A model generated the notes under the pieces. That model had not been told where the DNA came from, searched no databases, and saw only the letters and a list, made by a program, of their open reading frames with translations. 64,000 nucleotides of DNA. Source: Ignavibacteriales bacterium (lineage in GTDB: Bacteria; Bacteroidota; Ignavibacteria; UBA10030). Numbering within the stretch: position 1 is the stretch's first letter; each line of letters opens with the position of its first letter. The stretch covers positions 186,001-250,000 of the forward strand of contig JAPLFR010000009.1 of NCBI GenBank assembly GCA_026390575.1. Direction: 5' to 3'. Shown here piece after piece: positions 997-13,631 of the stretch. The position numbers and the translations under genes are program-made.

Positions 997-2820
997 CTAT
1001 TTCATTATGATCATCTTTTTCGTTGCTTGAAATTCTCCTGCTTGAATGCGATAAAAGTAGATACCGCTGGGAATCTCTGAAGTACTACTAAAGAGTTGAG
1101 AATAATTCCCTGCTTTTTTATAGCCATCGACTAATGTCATAAGTTCCTGCCCTATGATATTAAATATTTTTAGACTCACATAACAGGCACTAGGGAGTTG
1201 ATAACGAATGACTGTCGATGGATTAAACGGATTTGGATAATTTTGCTCAAGTGAGCCGGATCGCGGGATATTATCGTTGAAATCGCGAATGCCTGTCGGC
1301 TGCGCAAGCGTAACCCGCAGTTGTTTCGGGTATCCGAATATGTTTTCAAAATATTTTGAATTAAGAGAGAAATATTTATTATATGTTTTTGCCCTCAATC
1401 CTGAAGTCCGAATGTGTATATGCACCGTGCTGGAACTTTGCGGAGCCGCATAAAATTTCATTGGAGTGATGGTGATGCACGAATCAGGAATAATGCCGTT
1501 GCCCATAGCCACCGTGATCGAATCCGATCCGGTGCCGGTGTTGGCGACAATAAAGGATGTGTCAATAACTTCGTTCTTAAGCGAAACAGTATCCAGCTGG
1601 ATGATATCAGCACCCACATCGATCACCGGCGCACCGGATTCATAAAAAAGCTGACGGTCGAGGGCGTACACGTACCCCCTGTTGTCGCCGAAAAATATTT
1701 TACCGTCTGCACTGACGGGAATCGAATTGATGCCGTTGGCAATCCGTAATCTCGCCTTAACAATTCCCGAACACTTATCGATCGCGATCAATGAACCGTA
1801 TGCATTGCCATCGAACGTGTCTCCGGTTCCGAGAACGATGAAACTACTGTCGACTGTCGGTGAGTTGAAGATTCGAAAATCGACCTTGCATTCCCAAACA
1901 AACCGGCCTGTCAATGTGTTAAACGCTTTCGCATTATGCTGTGAAGATCCTCCAATATAGATCAGGCTATCCGACACGACCGGTCCGCCAACAAGAAAGA
2001 GATTTTCATTCGTTCTGGGATCTTTCCAGGACCAGTTCCTTACCCCGGTCCCAGCATTGATCGAGAAAATTGTGCTGCTTATGCCGGCGAAAAACACCGT
2101 ATTATCGTGAACTATGGGAGGTGTATTAATCGCATTGCCGTACGGGCAATTATAGACAGAATGCGTATCAAATTCCCATACCTTATTGCCTGTAGTGATA
2201 TCGTAGGCATACATCACACCATACCAATCTCCGAAGATCACCATATTACCGCTGACCGCAGGCGACACGCGAATTCCACTCTTCCGGGTCGTTTGACATA
2301 TAAATGTTTGCGAACCTGTTTTCATATCAATGCCATACACAAGTCCTTGGTCGGTACCGATGAATGCAATATCATTTACAATCTTCGGGGAAGAATGGAA
2401 ATAGTCATACGATACGTACTGATCGATGAGCTTATCACCATACAATGTAAACTTCCATATCTGTTTGCCCTGAGAATTCAAGGCATAAAGAATGTTGCCG
2501 CTTTCAAAGCATATGATGGAGTTCCAGATCGCTGCGTTCGAACGAATCGGACTACCCGTAGCAAAGCGCCATCGCTCGTTTCCTGTTTGAGCATCAAGTG
2601 CATAAAAATTACTATCCAGACTTCCGACAAAGACCATGCCGTTATAAACAAGAGGTGCAGTGTAAATAGCTCCGTTTGTTTTGAATTCCCATAAGATAGG
2701 ATTCGCCTGTGAATTCGAATTATTATTTTGACTTGCAGCAAAACTGATGTCTGTCATCAGGCCAGTGAGGCAAGAAGCCAGAATGATTGATACAATTGTT
2801 AAATGAAAAATACTGCGCAT
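997..2820 (-). CDS. Secreted PQQ-type beta-propeller protein with type IX sorting domain
   Basis: The 607-residue protein begins with a Sec signal peptide (about 1-28, ending ISFA). About eight propeller blades follow, marked by repeated YALD/YAYD, 'TG...W.F' and 'V.FG' strands as in PQQ-dependent dehydrogenase and BamB repeats (about 45-395). Next come an Ig-like section (about 400-500) and a C-terminal sorting domain starting near 525 with 'LEQNYPNPFNPST' and ending KKMIIMK. Such tails direct export by the type IX system. No dehydrogenase active site is visible, so a binding or structural role is more likely than an enzyme. AAGGAG lies just upstream of the start. It is monocistronic. The divergent side (2821-2964) holds no further gene. 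Confidence 0.85.
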   Translation of the reverse strand: MRSIFHLTIVSIILASCLTGLMTDISFAASQNNNSNSQANPILWEFKTNGAIYTAPLVYNGMVFVGSLDSNFYALDAQTGNERWRFATGSPIRSNAAIWNSIICFESGNILYALNSQGKQIWKFTLYGDKLIDQYVSYDYFHSSPKIVNDIAFIGTDQGLVYGIDMKTGSQTFICQTTRKSGIRVSPAVSGNMVIFGDWYGVMYAYDITTGNKVWEFDTHSVYNCPYGNAINTPPIVHDNTVFFAGISSTIFSINAGTGVRNWSWKDPRTNENLFLVGGPVVSDSLIYIGGSSQHNAKAFNTLTGRFVWECKVDFRIFNSPTVDSSFIVLGTGDTFDGNAYGSLIAIDKCSGIVKARLRIANGINSIPVSADGKIFFGDNRGYVYALDRQLFYESGAPVIDVGADIIQLDTVSLKNEVIDTSFIVANTGTGSDSITVAMGNGIIPDSCITITPMKFYAAPQSSSTVHIHIRTSGLRAKTYNKYFSLNSKYFENIFGYPKQLRVTLAQPTGIRDFNDNIPRSGSLEQNYPNPFNPSTVIRYQLPSACYVSLKIFNIIGQELMTLVDGYKKAGNYSQLFSSTSEIPSGIYFYRIQAGEFQATKKMIIMK

Positions 2821-2964
2821 TTTAAAATACTCCTTTCTTGGATTAAATTGATTGAGTGTAATTAAATAAATTGCAATAGGAATCTCGACCGGATAAAGTC
2901 AGACTGCAGGTATTCGAACCATTTATTTTTAGTAGTGGGATGTGAAAATTGAACGAAAAGTGAC

Positions 2965-4092
2965 TTAATTCGTCATTAAGCGCTGTCTTTTGTACTCAGT
3001 CGGAGTCGTACCGGTATGTTTTTTAAAAGCCTGGTTGAAAGAAGATTTTGTATTAAAGCCGACTTCGTATAGAATTTCAAGGATTGTTTTCCGCTGTGTC
3101 GCTGTGTCCGAGAGGAGGCGCTGAGATTCTTTTATACGGTATGTATTGATAAAATCGTAATAATTTTGACCTAGTGTATTGTTGATAATTTCCGATAGCG
3201 AGCGGTGCGGGATCAATATTTTTCTCGAGAGATCAATTAACGTAATATTAGGATCCAAATAGGGCTTTTCACTTTCCATATATTGGGATAATCTGTTGAG
3301 ATATTGCTTCTCTACTGATTTTGATAAGTAAGGAGTTTTCTGCCGGCTTTCTTCTTCAACACCTGAAAATATTGTAGGATGAATGAGGGCTTTGAAAAAT
3401 ATGTAGTTATAAAAAATAAAAAAAGCGAGAAAGTTTATTAGATCTATACTCGTTGAAATATTTAAGACAAGTACACGCGATATAAAATTAAAAACACTTG
3501 TACACCATGCAATAAGAAATCCATAGAGAACGACACTCAACCAAGACAAATTTATATTTTGAATAGAAGAATATTCCTGTCTTATTTTAGCCCGATAATT
3601 CTTAAGGATGAAAAGAGAGGTAATATTGTAAATAAGTATGTGGATGTGTACGGCTATATTGTAATACCTCCAGAACGACTGAGAAAGGAATGCGTGGTTG
3701 GCAAGTAATGCTTGTTTCGTTTCCACAGAATGAATATGAAACGTACCAGTGAAATAGATTACGGTCAATATGAACGGCAATGCATGAATAATATGCCGTT
3801 TGTTTAAATTAAAATCAGAATATGCCAGGGATTTGATATAGAAATAAAATGTCGGTCCTGCAAGGAAATAGATAGGTACACCAAGGTAAAAAAGATCCGG
3901 ACAAAAAGCATAGATTTCACGATAAAATTGAAAGCATTCATAATTAATGATCATCAATATTTGTTCAATTAAAAATACTGCAAGGATTCTATTAGATTGT
4001 ATATTAGTTTTCCTTAGGACTAAAAAGAAAATAAAAACTGTCAGTTGAAATAAGGCAATGAAGTTGATTATATCCAGCAATCCTACCTTCAT
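2965..4092 (-). CDS. AraC-family regulator with multi-spanning membrane N-terminus
   Basis: Residues 1-240 (of 375) are mostly hydrophobic, with about seven predicted membrane segments, starting with the stretch around residues 8-27. Residues about 265-372 form an AraC-type double helix-turn-helix, with the second helix pair showing 'ILEILYEVGFNTKSSFNQAFKKHTG' and ending TPTEYKRQR. Membrane-bound AraC regulators of this shape are common in Bacteroidota and probably sense an extracellular or membrane signal. The neighbouring secreted propeller gene lies downstream on the same strand, 144 bases away, and could be a target, though nothing proves it. Short dyads lie upstream (4164-4201). Confidence 0.88.
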   Translation of the reverse strand: MKVGLLDIINFIALFQLTVFIFFLVLRKTNIQSNRILAVFLIEQILMIINYECFQFYREIYAFCPDLFYLGVPIYFLAGPTFYFYIKSLAYSDFNLNKRHIIHALPFILTVIYFTGTFHIHSVETKQALLANHAFLSQSFWRYYNIAVHIHILIYNITSLFILKNYRAKIRQEYSSIQNINLSWLSVVLYGFLIAWCTSVFNFISRVLVLNISTSIDLINFLAFFIFYNYIFFKALIHPTIFSGVEEESRQKTPYLSKSVEKQYLNRLSQYMESEKPYLDPNITLIDLSRKILIPHRSLSEIINNTLGQNYYDFINTYRIKESQRLLSDTATQRKTILEILYEVGFNTKSSFNQAFKKHTGTTPTEYKRQRLMTN

Positions 4093-4163
4093 CGTTTTTC
4101 ACTCACCATAAAAATAATTAGAAAGAATATAGTCCCTCGGAGGTTGAATATTCCAGACCCTCC

Positions 4164-4201
4164 TTCAATTGAATGTAATCACTAATTGCATTACGATGCA
4201 A
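4164..4201 (-). promoter_or_regulatory. Dyad cluster upstream of the araC-type gene (possible operator/promoter)
   Basis: There is a perfect palindrome TTCAATTGAA at 4164-4173 and an inverted pair TTGCAT-N4-ATGCAA at 4186-4201. On the minus strand TTGCAT of this dyad also sits 17 bases before TTACAT, a weak sigma-70-like arrangement. A role in autoregulation is inferred only from position. Confidence 0.35.
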
Positions 4202-4234
4202 CTGTCAATTTTGTTACTTTTTTGAGAGCCGAGA

Positions 4235-4285
4235 ACGAATGACTTTGTGGGAGCGGTGGAAGAAGCGGTTGGACATCTGAAGTAG
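4235..4285 (+). pseudogene. Decayed 3' end of a second PUR-domain gene
   Basis: Sixteen codons and a stop read TNDFVGAVEEAVGHLK, almost identical to the C-terminus of the PUR protein at 393-827 (NDFVGAVEEAVEHLK). The DNA matches with mostly third-position changes, so the copy arose from a coding gene. No start codon or upstream PUR sequence remains. A separate terminator follows at 4338. The 3' end has survived while the body was deleted or replaced by the 997-4092 block. Confidence 0.8.
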
Positions 4286-4337
4286 TAATAAGTGATCATG
4301 CGCCAGTCCTCCCTCCCGATAGCGCGTTGGCATTCTT

Positions 4338-4374
4338 AATCCCCGGCGTTTGGTAGAGCGCTGGGGATTTTTGT
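4338..4374 (+). terminator. Rho-independent terminator after the PUR remnant
   Basis: Eleven-base arms AATCCCCGGCG (4338-4348) and CGCTGGGGATT (4359-4369), with one G-U pair, then a T run. It isolates the hsd operon from upstream transcription. Confidence 0.8.
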
Positions 4375-4390
4375 TTCCGACTTATGTTTC

Positions 4391-4419
4391 TTGCATTTGC
4401 TACGAAGTTGAAGTACTAT
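4391..4419 (+). promoter_or_regulatory. Likely sigma-70 promoter of the hsd operon
   Basis: TTGCAT (4391-4396), a 17-base spacer and TACTAT (4414-4419), placed after a terminator and about 50 bases before hsdR. The -10 box is the same as in the repeat-borne promoters at 36137 and 39077. Confidence 0.5.
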
Positions 4420-4468
4420 TAATCAAATTTGCCAGCAAATAGACCAAGGTGATTCCAGAGAACTACTG

Positions 4469-6925
4469 ATGGCGAGCAACATACAAAACCTTTCCGAGCG
4501 TGATATTTGCACTAAATTTATCACTCCTGCAATTGTGAAAGCAGGATGGGATATCCAGACTCAATTGATGGAAGAAGTTTCGTTCACTGCTGGCAAGATC
4601 TATGTAAAAGGTAAGCTTACATGTCGCGGCGAAAAGAAGCGCGCAGACTACATCTTGTATTATAAATCCAATATTCCGATAGCAATTGTTGAAGCAAAGG
4701 ATGCTAATAATACTGTCTCGGGCGGTATCCAACAGGCGTTGGTATATTCTAAAATCTTAGATATTCCCTTCGTTTTCAGCAGCAATGGTACTGGATTCTA
4801 TTTTCACGACAAGACCGCAAGCGGTGAATCAATTGAAAAGACACTCCCATTAGATGGTTTTCCGTCACCGGATGAACTGTGGGCGAAATATAAAGCATAC
4901 AAAGGCCTCCAAGATCCAACAGTTGAGAAGATTGTTGAGCAAGATTATTACCCTGACAGCTTCGACCGGAAGCCACGTTATTATCAACAGATTGCCATTA
5001 ATAGAACGATTGAAGCAATAGCGAAAGGTGAAAAGCGCGTTCTCCTTGTGATGGCGACTGGCACAGGAAAAACCTATACTGCATTCCAAATAGCTTATAG
5101 ATTATGGAAAGCAGGTGCGAAGAAACGAATTCTATTCTTGGCCGACCGTACAGCGCTCATTGACCAGGCTCGCCGTAACGACTTCCGATACTTCCGAGAT
5201 AAGATGACGGTGATTAAGAAGAAGGTAGTAGAGACACAGGGGAAGGAAACTCTTGTCTCGACTCATAAGCGCGGTATCGATAGCGCAGACAAAGCATACG
5301 AAGTATTTCTGGGCTTATATCAAGGACTTTCGAGCACTGATGATAATATCAAGGATGCATACAAAGATTTCTCCGCGGATTTCTTTGATCTGGTCATCGT
5401 TGATGAGTGTCATCGTGGAAGCGCTAAAGATGATAGCGCTTGGAGAGAGATACTTACTTATTTCTCAAATGCCACTCATATTGGATTAACTGCAACTCCA
5501 AAAGAAACAGACGTTACTTCCAACAGCGAATACTTTGGCGAACCGATTTACACTTATTCACTCAAGCAAGGTATAGACGATGGGTTTCTTGCTCCATACA
5601 AGGTTGTACGTATCGGTTTGAATGTTGATCTTGATGGATGGAGGCCGCCGAAGGGATACTTGGACAAAGATGGTAATCCTGTCGAAGATCGAATCTATAA
5701 TCGTAAAGATTTTGATCGCAATATTGTTATTGATGAACGCAGAAAACTCGTTGCAAAGAAGATAACAGAGTTCTTAACGGGGGGAACTCGTTTTGAAAAG
5801 ACTATCATGTTCTGTGTTGATATTGAGCATGCTCAAGGAATGCGTAATGAGTTAGTGGCAGTGAATAGCGATCTTGTTGCGGAAAATGATAAGTACGTTA
5901 TGCAAATAACGGGAGATAATAATGAAGGAAAGATGCAGCTGGATAATTTCACTAACCCCGAAGAGAAATATCCTGTTATTGCAACAACGTCAAAACTCAT
6001 GACGACCGGAATTGATGCACAGACTTGTAAAGTTATTGTGCTGGATAGCAACATTCAGTCTATGACGGAGTTCAAACAGATCATTGGGCGTGGTACCCGA
6101 ATTAATGAGGACTATGGAAAGCGATACTTTACCATTTTGGATTTTCGCAGTGTGACAGATCTCTTTGCGGATAAAGAGTTCGACGGTGATCCGGTGAAGG
6201 TAAAAGAAGTAAAAGAGGATGACGACATTTCTACTGTCGATGCAGAAACAAACACTGAAGAGATTGTTATTGATGAAGTATCAGGAAAAGAAGTTGTCTT
6301 TGAGAAACCAAAGGTGAAAGATGCCCTTTCTGAGCATTCGGATAAACTGCACGAGAAACGAAAGAAGATTTATGTAAATAATGTTGATGTATCAGTTCTG
6401 CTTATTCGTGAGACCTACTTTGATGAATATGGAAAGCCAATCACATCAAGTCTGAAAGACTTTACAAAACAAAAGATTGAACATTCGTTTAAGTCACTTG
6501 ATGATTTTTTACAACGATGGAATAGTGCTGACCGTAAAGAGGTATTGATTGAGGAATTGAAACAGCAGGGCATTCTCGTGGATGAATTGCAGGAAGCTGT
6601 GAACAAAGATCTCGATCTCTTCGATATTATTTGCCACATTGCATTCGATAAACCGCCGCTAACAAGGAGAGAGCGTGCGGAAAATGTGAAGAAGCGTAAC
6701 TATTTTACAAAATATGGCAATCAGGCACGTGCAGTACTTGAAAAACTGCTTGAAAAGTATGCCACTGAAGGAATAGAAAATCTTGAATCGATGGAAGTTC
6801 TCAAAGTGCCTCCGTTTGATGAATTTGGTTCAGTAACTCAGATTATAAGTCTCTTTGGCAATAAAGAAAACTATCTTACCGCAGTTAAAGAATTAGAACA
6901 ACAACTCTATAGTTCGGCAGCGTAA
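4469..6925 (+). CDS. hsdR: Type I restriction enzyme, R (endonuclease/translocase) subunit
   Basis: The 818-residue HsdR subunit cleaves DNA after ATP-driven translocation in complex with HsdM and HsdS. Residues 1-150 hold the nuclease fold, with RADYILYY (D60) and AIVEAKDA (E75, K77) as the PD-(D/E)xK centre. Two RecA-like motor domains follow, with Walker A ATGTGKT (196-202), VDECHRGS (DEAD-box-like motif, about 311-318), GLTATP and a helicase C motif QIIGRGTR. The C-terminal part resembles the EcoEI R subunit, which is also about 800 residues. It is first in a five-gene operon and lies 3 bases before hsdM. All key motifs are present, so the enzyme looks active. Confidence 0.95.
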   Translation: MASNIQNLSERDICTKFITPAIVKAGWDIQTQLMEEVSFTAGKIYVKGKLTCRGEKKRADYILYYKSNIPIAIVEAKDANNTVSGGIQQALVYSKILDIPFVFSSNGTGFYFHDKTASGESIEKTLPLDGFPSPDELWAKYKAYKGLQDPTVEKIVEQDYYPDSFDRKPRYYQQIAINRTIEAIAKGEKRVLLVMATGTGKTYTAFQIAYRLWKAGAKKRILFLADRTALIDQARRNDFRYFRDKMTVIKKKVVETQGKETLVSTHKRGIDSADKAYEVFLGLYQGLSSTDDNIKDAYKDFSADFFDLVIVDECHRGSAKDDSAWREILTYFSNATHIGLTATPKETDVTSNSEYFGEPIYTYSLKQGIDDGFLAPYKVVRIGLNVDLDGWRPPKGYLDKDGNPVEDRIYNRKDFDRNIVIDERRKLVAKKITEFLTGGTRFEKTIMFCVDIEHAQGMRNELVAVNSDLVAENDKYVMQITGDNNEGKMQLDNFTNPEEKYPVIATTSKLMTTGIDAQTCKVIVLDSNIQSMTEFKQIIGRGTRINEDYGKRYFTILDFRSVTDLFADKEFDGDPVKVKEVKEDDDISTVDAETNTEEIVIDEVSGKEVVFEKPKVKDALSEHSDKLHEKRKKIYVNNVDVSVLLIRETYFDEYGKPITSSLKDFTKQKIEHSFKSLDDFLQRWNSADRKEVLIEELKQQGILVDELQEAVNKDLDLFDIICHIAFDKPPLTRRERAENVKKRNYFTKYGNQARAVLEKLLEKYATEGIENLESMEVLKVPPFDEFGSVTQIISLFGNKENYLTAVKELEQQLYSSAA

Positions 6926-6928
6926 TCT

Positions 6929-8344
6929 ATGTCCCACAACATTTCCGGTGTAATTAAATCTATCCGTGACATTATGCGTGAAGATCGTGGCGTAAGCGGC
7001 GACGGTCAACGCATTGAGCAGCTTGCTTGGATGCTCTTCTTAAAAATCTTTGACGATAACGACAAGGACCTTGAACTGAGGAAGGATACCTACAAATCTC
7101 CTATTCCAAAGAAATATCAATGGCGTCATTGGGCGGAAAATACCGAAGGAATAACGGGGGATGAGCTTTCAAAATTTGTCGATCAGGAATTGTTTCCAGC
7201 ACTCAGGGAGTTAAGGCCTGCAACAAAACGTGCATATTTAGTGCGCGAGGCGTTTGAAGGCAATAACAACTACATGAAGAGCGGTACCAACATCCGTAAG
7301 GTGTTGAACAAACTTGATGAACTTGATTTTAATGTTGCTACTGAACGGCATCTGTTCGGTGAAATGTATGAAACCATACTGCGTGAATTGCAAAATGCCG
7401 GAGATTACGGCGAGTTCTATACACCACGTGCAGTAACGCAGTTTATGACGGATATGGTGAACCCGAAACTTGGCGAAGTGGTGTTTGACCTCGCGTGCGG
7501 AACAGGCGGATTTTTAACCTGCACCATTGAGCATTTGAAGAAGCAGATCAAGAATGTTCACGACAGACGGATACTGCAAGAGACTGTCCGCGGCAATGAA
7601 TACAAACCGCTTCCATATCTGTTGGCTATTACCAACCTTCTCCTTCACGATATTGAAGAGCCGGATATTACTTACATCGATAGCTTGGGAAGAGAACTGA
7701 CGAGTTACAAAGAAAGGGAGCGTGTAGATGTTATTCTTGCGAATCCGCCGTTTGGTGCAACGGTTTCCAACAATAATGAAAAGAATTTTCCTCAAACGTA
7801 CAGAACAAAAGAGAGTGCCGATCTTTTTCTCATTCTCTTCGTTCATCTGCTTAAAGATGGAGGACGTGCGGCGATTGTATTGCCGGATGGTTCGTTGACA
7901 GGTGAGGGCATAAAACAACGTATCCGTGAGAAACTGTTAACCGATTGCAACCTCCATACCATTATACGATTGCCAAACTCCGTATTTCAACCCTATGCAA
8001 CAGTAGCGACCAATTTATTGTTCTTCACGAAAGGTAAGCCGACAAAGGAGGTTTGGTATTATCAACACCGATTACCAGAAGGGCAAAAGGCATATAACAA
8101 GACACGACCGATACAGTTAAAAGAGTTTGATCCGATAAAAAAATGGTGGAAGAAACGAGAAGAGAGTGAGATTTGTTGGAAGGTTAATATTGATACAATC
8201 AAAGAACGTGGATTTGATTTGGATATAAAGAATCCAACGGTTGTTGAGGAGGAATTAGAATTTACGAGTGGTGAATTGATTGAGAAAATTCAAGAGTCAT
8301 TTAGGATGTCATCTGAAATATTGAATCAACTAAAATCAAGATAG
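6929..8344 (+). CDS. hsdM: Type I DNA adenine methyltransferase, M subunit
   Basis: The 471-residue HsdM methylates adenine N6 at sites chosen by HsdS and protects host DNA. Residues 1-140 are the helical N-terminal domain. The catalytic domain shows the S-adenosylmethionine motif DLACGTGGF (187-195) and the adenine-specific motif NPPF (272-275), preceded by GEFYTPRAVTQFM. Length is normal. It sits 3 bases after hsdR, and its stop overlaps the GTG start of hsdS by one base, so the three are translationally coupled. Confidence 0.95.
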   Translation: MSHNISGVIKSIRDIMREDRGVSGDGQRIEQLAWMLFLKIFDDNDKDLELRKDTYKSPIPKKYQWRHWAENTEGITGDELSKFVDQELFPALRELRPATKRAYLVREAFEGNNNYMKSGTNIRKVLNKLDELDFNVATERHLFGEMYETILRELQNAGDYGEFYTPRAVTQFMTDMVNPKLGEVVFDLACGTGGFLTCTIEHLKKQIKNVHDRRILQETVRGNEYKPLPYLLAITNLLLHDIEEPDITYIDSLGRELTSYKERERVDVILANPPFGATVSNNNEKNFPQTYRTKESADLFLILFVHLLKDGGRAAIVLPDGSLTGEGIKQRIREKLLTDCNLHTIIRLPNSVFQPYATVATNLLFFTKGKPTKEVWYYQHRLPEGQKAYNKTRPIQLKEFDPIKKWWKKREESEICWKVNIDTIKERGFDLDIKNPTVVEEELEFTSGELIEKIQESFRMSSEILNQLKSR

Positions 8345-9828
8345 TGAAACCTCAAATAAAATATATTCCTTTATCTTTCCTTACTTCAGAAACCGAAATA
8401 AAAAAACAGCTTAGGAATACAGTCGTATTTTCTCATTTACTTGACCAATATGAAACAACCACTCTTTCAAATTATCTTGTAAATTCGCAATATGGATATA
8501 CGGCTTCGGCTGCTGCAACTGGAGCTCATAAACTTGTAAGAATTACTGACATCAATGATGGTATGGTTGATTGGGCGAGTGTCCCATCTTGCGATTGTGA
8601 TTCGCATGAACAATATCTCTTGAAGGAAAATGATATTTTAATTGCACGCACAGGCGGAACAACAGGAATAACGTTCTTGGTTAAGAATCCACCAAACAAT
8701 GCAATATTTGCGAGCTACTTAATACGACTGCGAGTTAGCAATGATAATTCTGCAGAATTTATCTATGCCTATTTGAACTCATATATATTTTGGAGTCAAA
8801 TAACAAAACTAAAATCTGGTTCTGCACAGCCTAATGTCAATGCTGAAAAAATAAAGTTACTGGTTATCCCAAAGTGTGACAAGACAGTCCAAGGAAAGGT
8901 AATCCAATCTTTAAATAATTGTGCTGATGAGGAGGTTTATCGGAATCTTACAGATGGTATAGAACACATTGAAAATCAATTTGATAAAGTTCGGAGTTTG
9001 TCTAATGAAATCTCTCACCAACAATCTCTTCTCAAAAAATTACGGCAAGCGATATTGCAGGAGGCAGTGCAAGGAAAACTCGTACCGCAAGATCCAAACG
9101 ACGAACCTGCGAGCGAATTGCTCAATCGCATAAAATCCGAAAAAGAAAAACTCATTGCCGAAGGAAAGCTCCGAAAAGAAAAGCCTCTCCCACTAATAAA
9201 AGAAGAGGAAATACCTTTTGCACTTCCAAAGGGTTGGGTGTGGTGTAGGTTGGGGGATTGTTCAATCAATCGAGATGAAGATCGCATTCCAGTAGCACGT
9301 AATGACAGAGTAATGAAAGAGAAACTTTATGATTACTACGGTGCATCGGGTGTAATCGATAAAATAGATCATTATACACATGACGGAGAATTTTTATTAA
9401 TAGGTGAAGATGGTGCAAATCTTGTTGCAAGATCGACGTCAGTGGCTTTTATAGCAAAAGGGAAATTTTGGGTTAACAACCATGCCCATGTTTTGAAATT
9501 CATTGATCATAGTACACTCCAATACACAGAAATATTCGTTAATGCAATTGACTTGAAACCTTATATCACAGGCGGTTTTCAACCAAAATTAAGTCAAGCC
9601 AATCTAAATAATATTAATATAGCATTTCCACCGTTAGCAGCTCAAGAAAGAATTGTTCAAAAAGTTAATTTGCTTTTTAGTAATTGTGACCAACTCGAAA
9701 AACAAATCGAAGAGAATACGAAGCACTCAGAGATGTTATTGCAAGCGGTGTTAAAAGAGGCGTTTGAAACAAAAACTGTCTATAAAACTCCAGAACATGT
9801 CTATCGGATGGTAGCAGAAAAGAAATGA
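8344..9828 (+). CDS. hsdS: Type I restriction-modification specificity subunit
   Basis: The 494-residue HsdS carries two target-recognition domains, one at about 10-185 and one at about 290-440. They are separated by a helical spacer with the typical LRQAILQEAVQGKL motif and the 'LPKGWVWCRLGD' segment. A second spacer at the C-terminus carries 'PPLAAQERIVQKV' and a coiled coil. The two halves read different halves of a bipartite site, which cannot be predicted here. The start is GTG, overlapping the hsdM stop. The 3' end overlaps the next gene by 4 bases (ATGA), which ties the HipA-like kinase to this system. Confidence 0.93.
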   Translation: MKPQIKYIPLSFLTSETEIKKQLRNTVVFSHLLDQYETTTLSNYLVNSQYGYTASAAATGAHKLVRITDINDGMVDWASVPSCDCDSHEQYLLKENDILIARTGGTTGITFLVKNPPNNAIFASYLIRLRVSNDNSAEFIYAYLNSYIFWSQITKLKSGSAQPNVNAEKIKLLVIPKCDKTVQGKVIQSLNNCADEEVYRNLTDGIEHIENQFDKVRSLSNEISHQQSLLKKLRQAILQEAVQGKLVPQDPNDEPASELLNRIKSEKEKLIAEGKLRKEKPLPLIKEEEIPFALPKGWVWCRLGDCSINRDEDRIPVARNDRVMKEKLYDYYGASGVIDKIDHYTHDGEFLLIGEDGANLVARSTSVAFIAKGKFWVNNHAHVLKFIDHSTLQYTEIFVNAIDLKPYITGGFQPKLSQANLNNINIAFPPLAAQERIVQKVNLLFSNCDQLEKQIEENTKHSEMLLQAVLKEAFETKTVYKTPEHVYRMVAEKK

Positions 9829-10658
9829 ATCGATTAAACAGCATAGAAGCTGTTGAGAAAGTTTATGAGACAGGCTGCAGGCCGCTCCTTGTTCATGCTA
9901 GTGATCTGAATTTCTATGTGTGTAAATACCATATATTGGGCAAGTCAGCTGATAAACTGTTCAGAGAGTATGTTGCAGCATCATTTGCAAAAGAGTGGGG
10001 AATACGTGTCCCTGAATTTTCAGCAGTGACACTAAGAAAGGACCATCTTCCACCTGAACTTGGAATTCGTTCTATCAATCTCAAATACCCATGTTTCGGA
10101 TCGCTTTATAATCGTGAGTATAAGGAAATAGATCAATTTCTCTATGCAATGTCGAATTACGAAAAGAGAAAATTCGCAAATCCCAATGAGTTTCTTACAA
10201 TCGCTTTCTTTGATTTGTGGTTAAGCAATGAAGACCGTCATTCGGGAAACTTTAACTTATTCCTTTCTGTTGAAGATGATGGAACTCATTTAGTAGCATT
10301 TGATCATGAAAGCATATTCAATAATGGTAATCTCGAAAGAGGGCTAACAGTACTTACAGAGGAAGAAACGCTATTATCAAGCCCGCTTCTTTTACGGATT
10401 TTTAGCCGAAAAGAGCTTGCCGATCAAGACCGTGTTGCATTGCTGAAGAAGAAGTGGTACGTTTCAATAAACCAATGTAAAGAAGTTCTTGAAACCATTC
10501 TAGGGCAGACACCAAATGAATGGCATATCGATCTTGAGACTCAACTTTCCCTGATGAGAGAAAAATTATTTAGTGAACGATGGCTGGAAGAGTGCCATCA
10601 GAAATATTTAGAATTTATTCAATTTAATTTTAACAAAAGCCATGAAAACAATATATAG
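9825..10658 (+). CDS. HipA-like (HipA_2 type) kinase coupled to the hsd operon
   Basis: The 277-residue protein has a HipA-type kinase fold. 'RPLLVHASDLNFYVCKY' supplies the nucleotide-binding lysine (K34). 'LFREYVAASFAKEWGIRVPEF' resembles the HipA helix after it. 'DLWLSNEDRHSGNFNLFL' (130-147) gives the catalytic loop N-x-D-R-x(3)-N (D137, N142), and 'VAFDHESIF' (157-165) gives the metal-binding Asp (D160). It lacks the longer N-terminal domain of classical HipA, and no HipB-like antitoxin is adjacent. It overlaps hsdS by 4 bases and the next gene by 17, so it is translated with both. HipA kinases phosphorylate proteins such as GltX; the target here is unknown. A defence or toxin role is inferred from context. 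Confidence 0.78.
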   Translation: MNRLNSIEAVEKVYETGCRPLLVHASDLNFYVCKYHILGKSADKLFREYVAASFAKEWGIRVPEFSAVTLRKDHLPPELGIRSINLKYPCFGSLYNREYKEIDQFLYAMSNYEKRKFANPNEFLTIAFFDLWLSNEDRHSGNFNLFLSVEDDGTHLVAFDHESIFNNGNLERGLTVLTEEETLLSSPLLLRIFSRKELADQDRVALLKKKWYVSINQCKEVLETILGQTPNEWHIDLETQLSLMREKLFSERWLEECHQKYLEFIQFNFNKSHENNI

Positions 10659-11514
10659 CATACTCTCAGCCCAGATTAGACCTGAAGTTCAGGAAAAAAT
10701 AACCTTAGGGCTTTTACTCGCAAGTGAAGGAAAAGTGTTTTTTAACTACTCTCACGGCAAGTTGAAAGCTTTGAAACAACTTCTAAGCGATAATAGCTAT
10801 TCCATTCTCCGAAGCACTTTGAAGAATATAGAACAAAATGCAATGATGGAAAGTGAGCAATCGGGAAGGTCGGAAGGACAACCAGTATTTGCTTCGGACA
10901 TGATGCATAAGTTATTCTCAGAAGAATATATCAATTATCTAAGCAAGTATAATAATAATGTAATATCCTTTTCTGCTCCGAAACCGATACTTGTTCAAGC
11001 AACGCAGGAGATATTCCAGAAATTATATCAGCAATTTATTGATGATACAATATCGATCGTAGAAGGTGTGCCGCGGATAAACAGTTTTAATACATATAAG
11101 ACAATACATGTATCCCAGTTGGAAAGACACTTCAATATTGACCGAGAATTGTCGGCTCCAGAAATTCCATATCTTATTGCGCCGGTTAAACTAGATTTGA
11201 TTGGCAGAAATGAATATCCTGTATTTGCCAGGGAAATCGATCTAGATCAAAGAGTGAACATAATCGAATATGATTTGGCTCAGTTGTTTTTATTACGTTC
11301 TGCATTTGAAGGGCAGCGTCAAAATTCCTTCGGATATGTCGTCGCAAATGAACCTGAAGGAAAAAATACAAAAAACTTTCAGATCTGGAAGCAACTAAGA
11401 GAAAACTTTCCTTTTGAGTATGTCGATACGTCGGAATGTGGAAGAATTCTTGAGTATGCAGAAAAACACGGCGTCAAACCATTGATTCAGCAAAATAAAG
11501 AGACTGCCTTTTAA
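10642..11514 (+). CDS. DUF3037-like protein, partner of the HipA-like kinase
   Basis: The 290-residue protein starts 'YSILSAQIRPEVQEKITLGLLLASEGKVFFNYSHGKLKALKQL' (5-47). This fits the start of DUF3037 proteins, which read roughly Y-x-I-x-x-x-P-x-x-x-E-x-(V/I)-x-(I/L)-G, then F, then S-x-x-K-(L/I). DUF3037 genes are often found next to HipA-like kinases, which supports the assignment. The C-terminal half (about 150-280) has no recognisable motif. There is no signal peptide or membrane segment. The gene overlaps the kinase by 17 bases and ends the operon about 100 bases before a strong terminator. It might be an antitoxin, substrate or adaptor of the kinase, but nothing in the sequence decides this. 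Confidence 0.6.
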   Translation: MKTIYSILSAQIRPEVQEKITLGLLLASEGKVFFNYSHGKLKALKQLLSDNSYSILRSTLKNIEQNAMMESEQSGRSEGQPVFASDMMHKLFSEEYINYLSKYNNNVISFSAPKPILVQATQEIFQKLYQQFIDDTISIVEGVPRINSFNTYKTIHVSQLERHFNIDRELSAPEIPYLIAPVKLDLIGRNEYPVFAREIDLDQRVNIIEYDLAQLFLLRSAFEGQRQNSFGYVVANEPEGKNTKNFQIWKQLRENFPFEYVDTSECGRILEYAEKHGVKPLIQQNKETAF

Positions 11515-11613
11515 TCTTTATTTACCTCAATATTCAAAAACCATTGCGTCCGTAGTTGTTCCCTCACCTTGTCTTTCCTGCCAAAAAGCCGTACCTTACT
11601 AAATATGGCATTT

Positions 11614-11644
11614 CTTGATCTGGCGACAGGTCAAGTTTTTTTTT
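11614..11644 (+). terminator. Rho-independent terminator of the hsd-hipA operon
   Basis: Arms CTTGATCT (11614-11621) and AGGTCAAG (11628-11635), a GGCGAC loop and a run of nine T. It separates the restriction operon from tilS. A perfect TATAAT at 11644-11649 directly follows and may be the -10 box for tilS, although its -35 is poor. Confidence 0.85.
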
Positions 11645-11686
11645 ATAATAGTGGACAGAACAAAGACGCATCTGTCTTTTGCATGT

Positions 11687-13075
11687 ATGCATTCTCTCGA
11701 AGTAAAACTTGAAAAATACAATCAGCGTCATCGGTTAATAGCACCGGTGCAATCCGTTCTTCTTGCGGTAAGCGGCGGCGTGGATTCAATGGTTATGCTT
11801 CATCTGTTCTCAAGAGTTCGTGAACGACTGAAACTGAAGCTTTCGGTTATTCACGTCAATCACCAATTGCGCGGTGAAGAATCGATGGGGGATGAAAAAT
11901 TCGTCATGGAGATGTCGAATTTTTATCACATTCCATTCTCTTGTGAGCGAATCGATGTGATGTCGTATGCTCATGAGCTTGGACTTTCAAAACAACTTGC
12001 TGCCCGCTGTCTTCGTTATGAATGCTTCGAACGTATCCGCGTCCAAGCAGGCACAGATACGGTTGCCACAGCACACCACGCGGATGATAATGCAGAAACA
12101 GTGCTTCTCAACATAATGCGAGGAACCGGCATTCACGGTTTGGCGGGAATCCCACCGAAACGCGAGACAGGTTGTATTATTCGTCCGTTACTTTTTGCAA
12201 CACGAAAAGAGATTGAAACGTATGCGGTAGAGCAGGGCATCACGTACCGAAATGATTCGTCAAATCGTTCGCTTGCATATCGAAGGAACGAACTGCGGCA
12301 CAACATTCTTCCAATACTGCAGAAGAGTCATCCCAAGATCGTCAAGACCTTAAATCAAATTGCCGGCACGATGTTGGACGTAAACGAAAAAATGCGAAGA
12401 ATTGTTGATGAAACAATGCGTGCTCTCATCCAAAAAGATCCACAGGGGCGCTTAACGTTACATGTGGAAAAACTGAAGTTGGAACCGGATTTTCTGTGGG
12501 ATGAAATTTTTGTTGAAGTCCTTCATCGGTTGGGTATTGAACCGACAGAAAAGAAAGTGAGTGCGCTTCACCGGCTTTGCACTCAACCAACAGGACGCAG
12601 TGTAGAATTAGGCAGCAGATTTGCATCATACCATGATCGCGAGTATGTTGTTTTCAAAATCACAGACGACGAACAATTGAAGAGCAGAAAAGTTGAATTT
12701 GGCAAAAGCTACGACTACAAAAATTGTCTTATTTCGATCAGTACACCGGAACGCGTGCCATCCGCCTTTGCCGGAACGCATGAAGTTGAATACATCGATG
12801 CCGAGCGATTAGGCCAACAACTTGTTTTGCGCACTTGGCAGAGCGGTGATTGGTTTATTCCGCTTGGCATGAAAACGAAAAAAAAGTTGAGCGATTTCTT
12901 TACAGATCAAAAAGTACCGCGGTATCAAAAATCTTCCATTCCTGTTCTAGAATCTGACGGCACTATCGTGTGGATTTGCGGCAAACGGTTAGACGATCGA
13001 TTCAAATTGACCGATCGGACACACACAGCAATTCGGCTTACCTGTCAACCATCAACAAGAGCTCACCATGTCTGA
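11687..13075 (+). CDS. tilS: tRNA(Ile)-lysidine synthase
   Basis: TilS attaches lysine to C34 of tRNA-Ile(CAU), changing its codon reading from AUG to AUA. The PP-loop ATP-pyrophosphatase motif SGGVDS lies at 29-34, followed by 'HVNHQLRGEES', the 'TAHHADDNAETVLLNIMRGTG' segment and the 'YRRNELRHNILP' motif. The TilS C-terminal substrate-binding domain is present ('WQSGDWFIPLGMK...KKLSDFFTDQKVP'). ATG 11687 is chosen because an upstream in-frame TTG (11615) lies inside the preceding terminator stem. The gene overlaps hpt by 8 bases, the usual tilS-hpt-ftsH order. Confidence 0.95.
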   Translation: MHSLEVKLEKYNQRHRLIAPVQSVLLAVSGGVDSMVMLHLFSRVRERLKLKLSVIHVNHQLRGEESMGDEKFVMEMSNFYHIPFSCERIDVMSYAHELGLSKQLAARCLRYECFERIRVQAGTDTVATAHHADDNAETVLLNIMRGTGIHGLAGIPPKRETGCIIRPLLFATRKEIETYAVEQGITYRNDSSNRSLAYRRNELRHNILPILQKSHPKIVKTLNQIAGTMLDVNEKMRRIVDETMRALIQKDPQGRLTLHVEKLKLEPDFLWDEIFVEVLHRLGIEPTEKKVSALHRLCTQPTGRSVELGSRFASYHDREYVVFKITDDEQLKSRKVEFGKSYDYKNCLISISTPERVPSAFAGTHEVEYIDAERLGQQLVLRTWQSGDWFIPLGMKTKKKLSDFFTDQKVPRYQKSSIPVLESDGTIVWICGKRLDDRFKLTDRTHTAIRLTCQPSTRAHHV

Positions 13076-13631
13076 ATTCATAAAAATCAATGGCGATACA
13101 TTTGAACCTTTCATTACGGAAGAGCAAATCCGTAACCGCATTCAAGAACTCGCTGCGCGCATCAATACCGACTATGCGGGAAAGACGCCAATATTTATTG
13201 GTGTCTTAAACGGTTCGTTCATTTTCCTTGCCGATCTCATTCGCGAGATTACTGTCGATTGCGAGATGGATTTCTTCAAGCTCTCGAGCTATGGCGATGC
13301 TAAAATTTCCTCCGGACAAGTAAAGCTATTGAAGAACCTCAATTGTGAGGTGGCGGGGCGTGATATCATTGTTGTAGAAGATATTGTTGACTCTGGCCTC
13401 TCTATTGCCTTCATTAAAAATATCATTGAAAAAGAAAATCCAAAGTCACTGAAGCTCGTCTCTCTCTTGTTAAAAAAAAGCGTGGCGAAAATTGACTTTC
13501 CGGTTGATTATGTTGGATTCGAAATTCCGCCGGATTTCGTCATTGGCTATGGCTTGGACTACGCGCAAAAAGTTCGTAACTTGAAATCAATTTATCGGCT
13601 TAATCCGCAAGGAACTATCAAGCCAGAGTAA
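13068..13631 (+). CDS. hpt: Hypoxanthine phosphoribosyltransferase
   Basis: The 187-residue purine-salvage enzyme converts hypoxanthine or guanine plus PRPP to IMP or GMP. The PRPP-binding loop reads [11 protein letters not shown] (about 103-113). '[16 protein letters not shown]' is the N-terminal loop and '[26 protein letters not shown]' the C-terminal base-binding and flap region. Length is typical. It is coupled to tilS by an 8-base overlap and is followed closely by ftsH. Confidence 0.95.

Follow-up and report, generated by a model that had tools for sequence, protein, structure and literature searches.

A HipAD-like kinase-DUF3037 gene pair, a putative toxin-antitoxin unit, at the tail of a mobile type I restriction-modification cassette

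Why does a type I restriction-modification (R-M) block in an Ignavibacteriales bacterium end in genes for a HipA-like kinase and a DUF3037 protein, and do these two act with the restriction enzyme? The five genes lie in a stretch of 64,000 nucleotides (assembly GCA_026390575.1, contig JAPLFR010000009.1, positions 186,001 to 250,000), hereafter the window, whose numbering is used throughout. An earlier note on this DNA had proposed that the pair is an undescribed defence module tied to the restriction system. Our analysis points to a toxin-antitoxin unit of the HipAD/PDC-M66 type, which is probably built into a mobile type I R-M cassette, where it would provide a second layer of defence. It is the link of the pair with R-M, and not the pair itself, that appears to be new.

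The block consists of five codirectional open reading frames (ORFs):

4469-6925, plus strand: hsdR, type I restriction subunit of the EcoAI/EcoEI family (NCBIfam restrict_EcoAI, 1126 bits; Pfam ResIII, EcoEI_R_C and HSDR_N)
6929-8344, plus strand: hsdM, N6-adenine methyltransferase subunit (N6_Mtase, 2e-71; HsdM_N, 3.7e-13)
8344-9828, plus strand: hsdS, specificity subunit with a GTG start (Methylase_S, 6.2e-27)
9825-10658, plus strand: HipA_2 kinase, the presumed toxin in a pair of the HipAD/PDC-M66 type (Pfam, PADLOC, predicted kinase fold)
10642-11514, plus strand: two-domain DUF3037 protein, presumed antitoxin (Pfam, position after the kinase, fold comparison, Retron-Sda1 homolog)

A 3-base gap separates the first two genes, and the following junctions are overlaps of 1, 4 and 17 bases, exactly the coordinates and spacing described in the earlier note. 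The matches to Pfam and NCBIfam place hsdR, hsdM and hsdS in one block, as expected of a type I R-M system.

The kinase (277 residues) matches HipA_2 (PF20613) at 1.8e-16 and 60.6 bits, for a cut-off of 27, and the PADLOC family PDC-M66A at 4.1e-10. Its AlphaFold2 model (pLDDT 92) retrieves PI4-kinase, HipA, CtkA and HipT as top PDB matches in Foldseek. The catalytic residues that the earlier note had listed, K34, D137, N142 and D160, are all present and are invariant across 37 close homologs; in a more divergent set of ten kinases N144 is invariant and N142 variable. The window pair has three features of HipAD/PDC-M66, namely a HipA_2 kinase, an adjacent DUF3037 gene and the active-site residues of the kinase.

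Such pairs are already known as PDC-M66, DS-6 or HipAD, and phage defence has been shown for other members (PMC12548924, PMC13092281), which removes the claim that the pair is undescribed. A pair of a HipA-like kinase and a DUF3037 protein sits in the Retron-Sda1 operon, where deletion of the kinase led to loss of defence against phage Bas51, deletion of DUF3037 proved toxic, and neither the reverse transcriptase nor the noncoding RNA was required (PMC12548924). The authors of that study give PDC-M66 as the PADLOC name of the pair and favour a self-contained system in which the kinase is the toxin. The DS-6, or HipAD, pair also defends against phages, and changing a catalytic residue of its kinase abolishes defence; a toxin-antitoxin nature was hypothesised by its authors (PMC13092281).

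No HipB-like gene occurs among the five operon genes, so that the earlier note was right on this point; to speak of a kinase lacking an antitoxin was nevertheless misleading, and we rejected the idea of an undescribed toxin without antitoxin, as DUF3037 fills that place in the tested homolog (PMC12548924). Because loss of DUF3037 is toxic in Retron-Sda1, the "missing" antitoxin of the window pair is presumed, by analogy, to be its DUF3037 protein (PMC12548924).

That protein has 290 residues, and its model has a pLDDT of 84 and a pTM of 0.50. Searching the PDB sequences with its profile gave no meaningful match. In fold comparisons the second domain, at about residues 145 to 277, has a shape like that of PD-(D/E)XK nucleases, with a middling best Z of 8.3. 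Position 185 is Asp in just 17 of 36 aligned rows and Asn in 11, which makes catalysis by the modelled domain unlikely; given this unconserved position and the middling fold matches, nuclease activity of the C-terminal domain was discarded as a candidate. Both genes of the pair look to be under purifying selection, since comparison with the copy in G004, a genome of the same genus, gave dN/dS values of 0.155 (kinase) and 0.141 (DUF3037). Between the same two copies (L024 for G004), residues 1 to 135 of the DUF3037 protein differ by 13 synonymous and no amino-acid changes, and the C-terminal part by 36 non-synonymous changes. Judging from these alignments, the two domains evolve very differently.

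Does the pair belong to the R-M block, or does it merely lie beside it? The five genes are a mobile type I R-M cassette, and the pair is present, absent and moved together with the R-M genes. The site in the window is delimited as follows:

approximately 4115-11561, no strand: inserted stretch, judged against G005, where the araC-tilS site is empty (blastn matches to L148 stop at 4114 and restart at 11562)

In G005, of the same genus, araC adjoins tilS and the five-gene block is absent between them, an empty site that records absence only and does not by itself give the direction of change. The homolog of window gene 393-827 adjoins tilS in G001, G002 and G003, and another ORF lies between this homolog and tilS in G004. 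The operon is thus absent from this site in all five same-genus genomes. G004 carries all five genes on another contig (G004:C13; L024/L085). The two copies are identical at 91% of nucleotides in hsdR, 90% in hsdM and 89% from the end of hsdS through DUF3037; at the amino-acid level the identity is 93% for HsdM, 89% for HipA and DUF3037, and 41% for HsdS. The G004 copy has its hsdR broken into two ORFs that overlap in different frames, perhaps through an assembly error, and an ORF of 261 codons whose product has no Pfam match lies between hsdR and hsdM.

The earlier note had bounded the unit by a promoter-like site before hsdR and a terminator of nine T residues at its end. Two hairpins are relevant here:

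4338-4369, plus strand: strong terminator-like hairpin of 14 pairs with a T-rich tail, between araC and hsdR
11614-11635, plus strand: hairpin followed by nine T residues (a genome of the same genus that lacks the operon shares the tract)

The hairpin at 11614-11635 exists, but its T tract is found in the genome with the empty site as well and is therefore apparently a feature of the tilS side, perhaps of a tilS leader, rather than of the cassette. The case for a promoter proved weak: the sigma-70-like site nearest to hsdR, at 4270-4299 with 9 of 12 matches and the only one noted between araC and hsdR, precedes the terminator-like hairpin at 4338-4369. Sigma-70-like sites number 22 in the interval 1500-13500 for 30.9 in shuffled sequence, and terminator-like hairpins 9 for 10.1, so that neither is in excess.

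How general is the association of such pairs with R-M genes? DUF3037 occurs in 86 of the 395 genomes that the search tool assigns to the phylum, and most of these places encode single-domain proteins of about 131 residues. Two sets of loci were compared with the window. Set A comprises 53 kinase loci close to that of the window, from a scan of GTDB contigs with the window, G004 and phage kinases as fetch patterns; it contains the G004 copy, L085. A DUF3037 gene directly follows the kinase in 52 of them, and the exception lies at a contig end. Set B comprises 22 long-form DUF3037 places besides the window (L056-L077). R-M genes were called by phmmer with one query set, in a fetched stretch of about 10 kb per side where the contig allowed; C5 methylases alone were covered among type II and III enzymes. 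R-M genes were found near 15 of the 53 loci of set A and 7 of the 22 of set B, that is, 22/75, compared with 0/20 short-form DUF3037 pairs and 1/20 classical HipA loci. The controls are samples of 20 short-form and 20 HipA_C places, one of which was truncated at 11.6 kb. The queries derive in part from the loci being scored, and once same-locus queries were dropped the counts were 13/53 and 7/22. Fisher values for such comparisons assume independent loci, an assumption that does not hold here. The neighbourhood count proposed in the earlier note thus gave an excess over both controls, together with a majority of loci, 53 of 75, that have no R-M gene in view.

A comparison with the genomes' own gene content gave a similar picture. 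In set B, Pfam N6_Mtase domains lie within 10 kb at no fewer than 6 of 22 places, versus 1.23 expected from the counts in the same genomes (P 0.0007, with the places treated as independent and the count read by hand); this P value is optimistic, because about a dozen of the 22 places come from one family (f27). Within 5 kb the count is at least 4 of 22 by gene ends, or 3 from the methylase domain, versus 0.62 expected.

Of the 22 linked loci, 18 have the R-M genes codirectional with the pair, and in 13 an R-M gene precedes the pair on its strand, either overlapping it or no more than 1 kb away. The R-M proteins were checked with Pfam in 13 loci; the other nine (L056, L060, L062, L066, L085, L099, L118, L127 and L135), four of which also have Pfam N6_Mtase places, rely on phmmer. 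Two linked loci, L065 and L076, have a DUF3037 gene without a kinase. A C5-methylase gene is found in one of the 75 loci (L127) and in 0/40 controls, and a weak methylase match beside L124 (8.6e-8), below threshold, was not counted.

Other forms of the pair were seen along the way. Short DUF3037 proteins of about 131 residues beside HipA_2 are common in the phylum, with R-M neighbours in 0/20 sampled places (L152-L171), and this single-domain form may represent a branch with a housekeeping role. Long-form DUF3037 genes without an adjacent kinase occur in L063, L065, L067 and L076, directly after hsdR in the case of L065. Two different DUF3037 genes stand in tandem behind one kinase at L095:7457-9184. 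At L073:4000-10430 the pair follows genes for a PRTase-CE/AAA protein and an Mrr_cat endonuclease, a defence-like setting. The viral contigs L079:7983-9652 and L080:814-2483 carry a pair whose kinase is 33 to 35% identical, followed by terminase-like genes (judged from the sequence). R-M genes were found beside none of the six pairs on viral contigs, and a search of the phage collection with the L079 kinase gave no match. To judge by these contigs, the pair is also phage cargo.

The R-M-linked pairs show some clustering on a tree of 69 pairs, built without the eight pairs that have short members and without five loci that have no pair. The window falls in a clade of ten (support 100/99) in which 8 pairs are R-M-linked, versus 12 of 59 outside it, a statement made after the tree was seen. 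The R-M label requires 12 changes on the tree, versus a mean of 17.5 after shuffling, and one of 500 shuffles was as low; near copies such as the window and L085 contribute to this clustering. The partner enzymes within the clade are of several kinds:

Window and L085: EcoAI/EcoEI-like type I system
L088: EcoR124-like type I system
L095: split type I R gene
L089: type I system with a YhcG-type nuclease and an EcoEI-like R gene
L086: Eco57I-like methylase with TaqI_C
L087: HSDR_N-N6_Mtase fusion with Methylase_S
L100: type ISP enzyme and an AbiJ-like (AbiJ_NTD4) gene

Outside the clade, the link involves MmeI-type genes (L114, L097) and type I systems (L056, L060, L133). The position of the pair also varies. 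A rule that it always follows hsdS is false, with L065, L066, L086, L100 and L097 as counterexamples: the pair follows hsdR in L066 (in L065, DUF3037 alone does), an Eco57I-like methylase in L086 and, in L100, an AbiJ-like gene that itself follows the type ISP gene, and it precedes MmeI in L097. In L133, it lies in opposite orientation between hsdR and hsdS.

The arrangement of the window recurs elsewhere. In L060, a genome from the Bacteroidota side, the order is M-S-HipA-DUF3037, and a plasmid of Pseudorhodobacter turbinis, an alphaproteobacterium, has the complete order hsdR-hsdM-hsdS-HipA-DUF3037 (L200). Pfam confirmed four of these plasmid genes, R, M, HipA_2 and DUF3037; the hsdS piece has a phmmer match (5.7e-7) and no Pfam match. 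An ORF resembling the end of hsdS overlaps the kinase gene by 13 bases. At L200:5618-8183, hsdS is apparently interrupted by an IS3-type element (two ORFs, judged from the sequence), and the pair is intact downstream. The DUF3037 protein of L060 matches two plasmid records, L200 and one from Hymenobacter, in which no R-M gene was seen; plasmid searches with P0001 or the L088 kinase gave no match.

How might the pair work with its neighbours? As a second layer within the cassette, it would act as follows. The R-M enzyme would provide the first layer, methylating host DNA and cutting unmodified phage DNA. The pair, translated from the same message as the R-M genes, would remain silent as a kinase-antitoxin complex until an infection beats this first layer, whereupon the antitoxin would release the kinase. 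The freed kinase would phosphorylate a component of the host, probably one of translation as in the case of HipA, and so halt growth ahead of phage release. The toxicity, target and trigger of this kinase are inferred.

Several observations weigh against this reading. We infer cotranscription of the five genes from their spacing alone, and R-M genes are absent from view in 53 of the 75 related loci. R-M genes belong to defence islands, so that their excess need not mean cooperation, and the controls were short-form pairs and classical HipA loci, not other defence-island genes. The DUF3037 (PF11236) match of the window protein is marginal, at 6e-5 and 23.7 bits for a cut-off of 22.6, and the protein matches none of the PADLOC families at E values up to 1. 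The kinase is 21 to 25% identical to most of the long-form relatives compared, a distant kinship.

The part of the earlier proposal that ties the pair to restriction holds in that the pair moves with the block and that R-M genes exceed both controls; the enzyme itself is not required by the pair, as follows from the viral contigs and the 53 loci without an R-M gene. A second layer of defence can therefore be understood in two ways. The pair may be independent cargo, a complete standalone HipAD that shares its promoter and its transport with the R-M genes and exchanges no signal with them, to which we give a nearly even chance. The Retron-Sda1 pair functions without its retron partners (PMC12548924), viral-contig pairs (0/6) and 53 of the 75 loci show no R-M gene, the partner enzymes are of unlike types, the pair in L133 is reversed between hsdR and hsdS, and G004 retains it despite a split hsdR, unless the latter is an assembly error, all of which would fit such cargo. 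However, 8 linked pairs in a clade of ten with changing enzymes, a pattern noticed post hoc, exceed what plain hitch-hiking would lead one to expect. The other sub-case, which we consider possible and rather doubtful, is a PrrC-like guard: the pair would monitor the R-M enzyme, the DNA that it produces or the methylation state, and the kinase would be freed once a phage inhibits or evades restriction. PrrC is a precedent, since the type Ic enzyme EcoprrI, to which it is linked, keeps it silent and Stp of phage T4 frees it (PMC2610378, PMC3874165). The recurrent, mostly codirectional placement (18/22) and the clade with eight linked members out of ten also argue for a guard, and the second domain of the antitoxin, which in the model resembles DNA-cleaving folds and has no conserved active site, could be a DNA sensor. 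Yet the partner enzymes are unrelated, so that a specific contact of the PrrC-EcoprrI type is unlikely to have been retained, and a guard would need a generic cue. It is a slightly more doubtful proposition that HipAD found with R-M is a generic guard of N6-adenine R-M, whose DUF3037 antitoxin senses failed or blocked restriction by a common cue; DNA ends and unmethylated or foreign-methylated DNA are tentative candidates for it. Such a cue would explain why one clade keeps R-M company (type I, Eco57I-like, type ISP) despite the change of enzyme. Standalone pairs, the restraint of the kinase by DUF3037 alone in the tested homolog (PMC12548924) and the G004 copy, where the pair persists next to an hsdR broken into two frames, possibly by an assembly error, all speak against a PrrC-like guard.

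Two further explanations dispense with a second layer. Defence genes gather in islands, and the junctions in the window could be the accident of one insertion. Most relatives are indeed elsewhere (53/75 without R-M), some in other defence company (PRTase-CE/AAA and Mrr_cat in L073, AbiJ_NTD4 in L100). We nevertheless regard a coincidental neighbourhood as improbable, for the displacement of the cassette as a unit, the excess over two control sets and the tree all weaken it, as do the excess over the genomes' own N6_Mtase density (at least 6/22 versus 1.23) and the recurrence of the gene order in another phylum. Control of the R-M enzyme by the kinase, through phosphorylation of HsdR, HsdM or HsdS, is very improbable. 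The four-base overlap with hsdS and the recurrent R-M neighbours would agree with such control, but pairs exist without any R-M gene, loss of DUF3037 is toxic in a homolog whose operon has no R-M enzyme (PMC12548924), and the partner families are unlike, those of L086 and L100 being single-chain Eco57I and type ISP methylases.

If the link with R-M is functional, the cassette would represent a second, more portable suicide gene wired into a restriction operon besides PrrC, and it would offer a handle on the trigger of HipAD, which is not given in the parts of PMC12548924 and PMC13092281 covered here. The recurring architectures in the window, its same-genus relative, the alphaproteobacterial plasmid and L060 are natural constructs with which to ask what happens when restriction is blocked. 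If the link is not functional, HipAD still travels as cargo of R-M cassettes. A link of HipAD with R-M was not found in the titles and starts of abstracts listed for open PMC papers, preprints being outside this scope; S1 File of PMC12548924, on DUF3037 neighbourhoods, was likewise outside the literature check and may already show R-M neighbours.

How, finally, does the pair compare with known systems? Like classical HipBA and HipBST, it has a kinase of the HipA-like fold, with HipA and HipT among the Foldseek matches. Unlike them, the kinase is 277 residues long and its gene is flanked by hsdS and DUF3037, not by HipB or HipS; membership in classical HipBA was rejected on a HipA_C score of 23.9 bits, under the cut-off of 30.5, and the lack of an adjacent HipB. 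The window resembles PrrC/EcoprrI in that a suicide-type gene lies inside a type I R-M operon (PMC2610378, PMC3874165). PrrC is an anticodon nuclease, whereas here a kinase comes with its own partner protein; with a HipA_2 kinase and a DUF3037 protein as the extra genes and no anticodon nuclease, the operon was not assigned to that system. DS-6B has been described with DUF3037 and DUF1829 (PMC13092281), and the DUF3037 protein of the window differs from it in having no Pfam DUF1829 match at E values up to 1. As in HipAD, DS-6 and PDC-M66, a HipA-like kinase gene is followed directly by a codirectional DUF3037 gene, and the kinase matches PDC-M66A; unlike the pairs as described in the parts of those accounts covered here, the pair of the window closes a type I R-M block.

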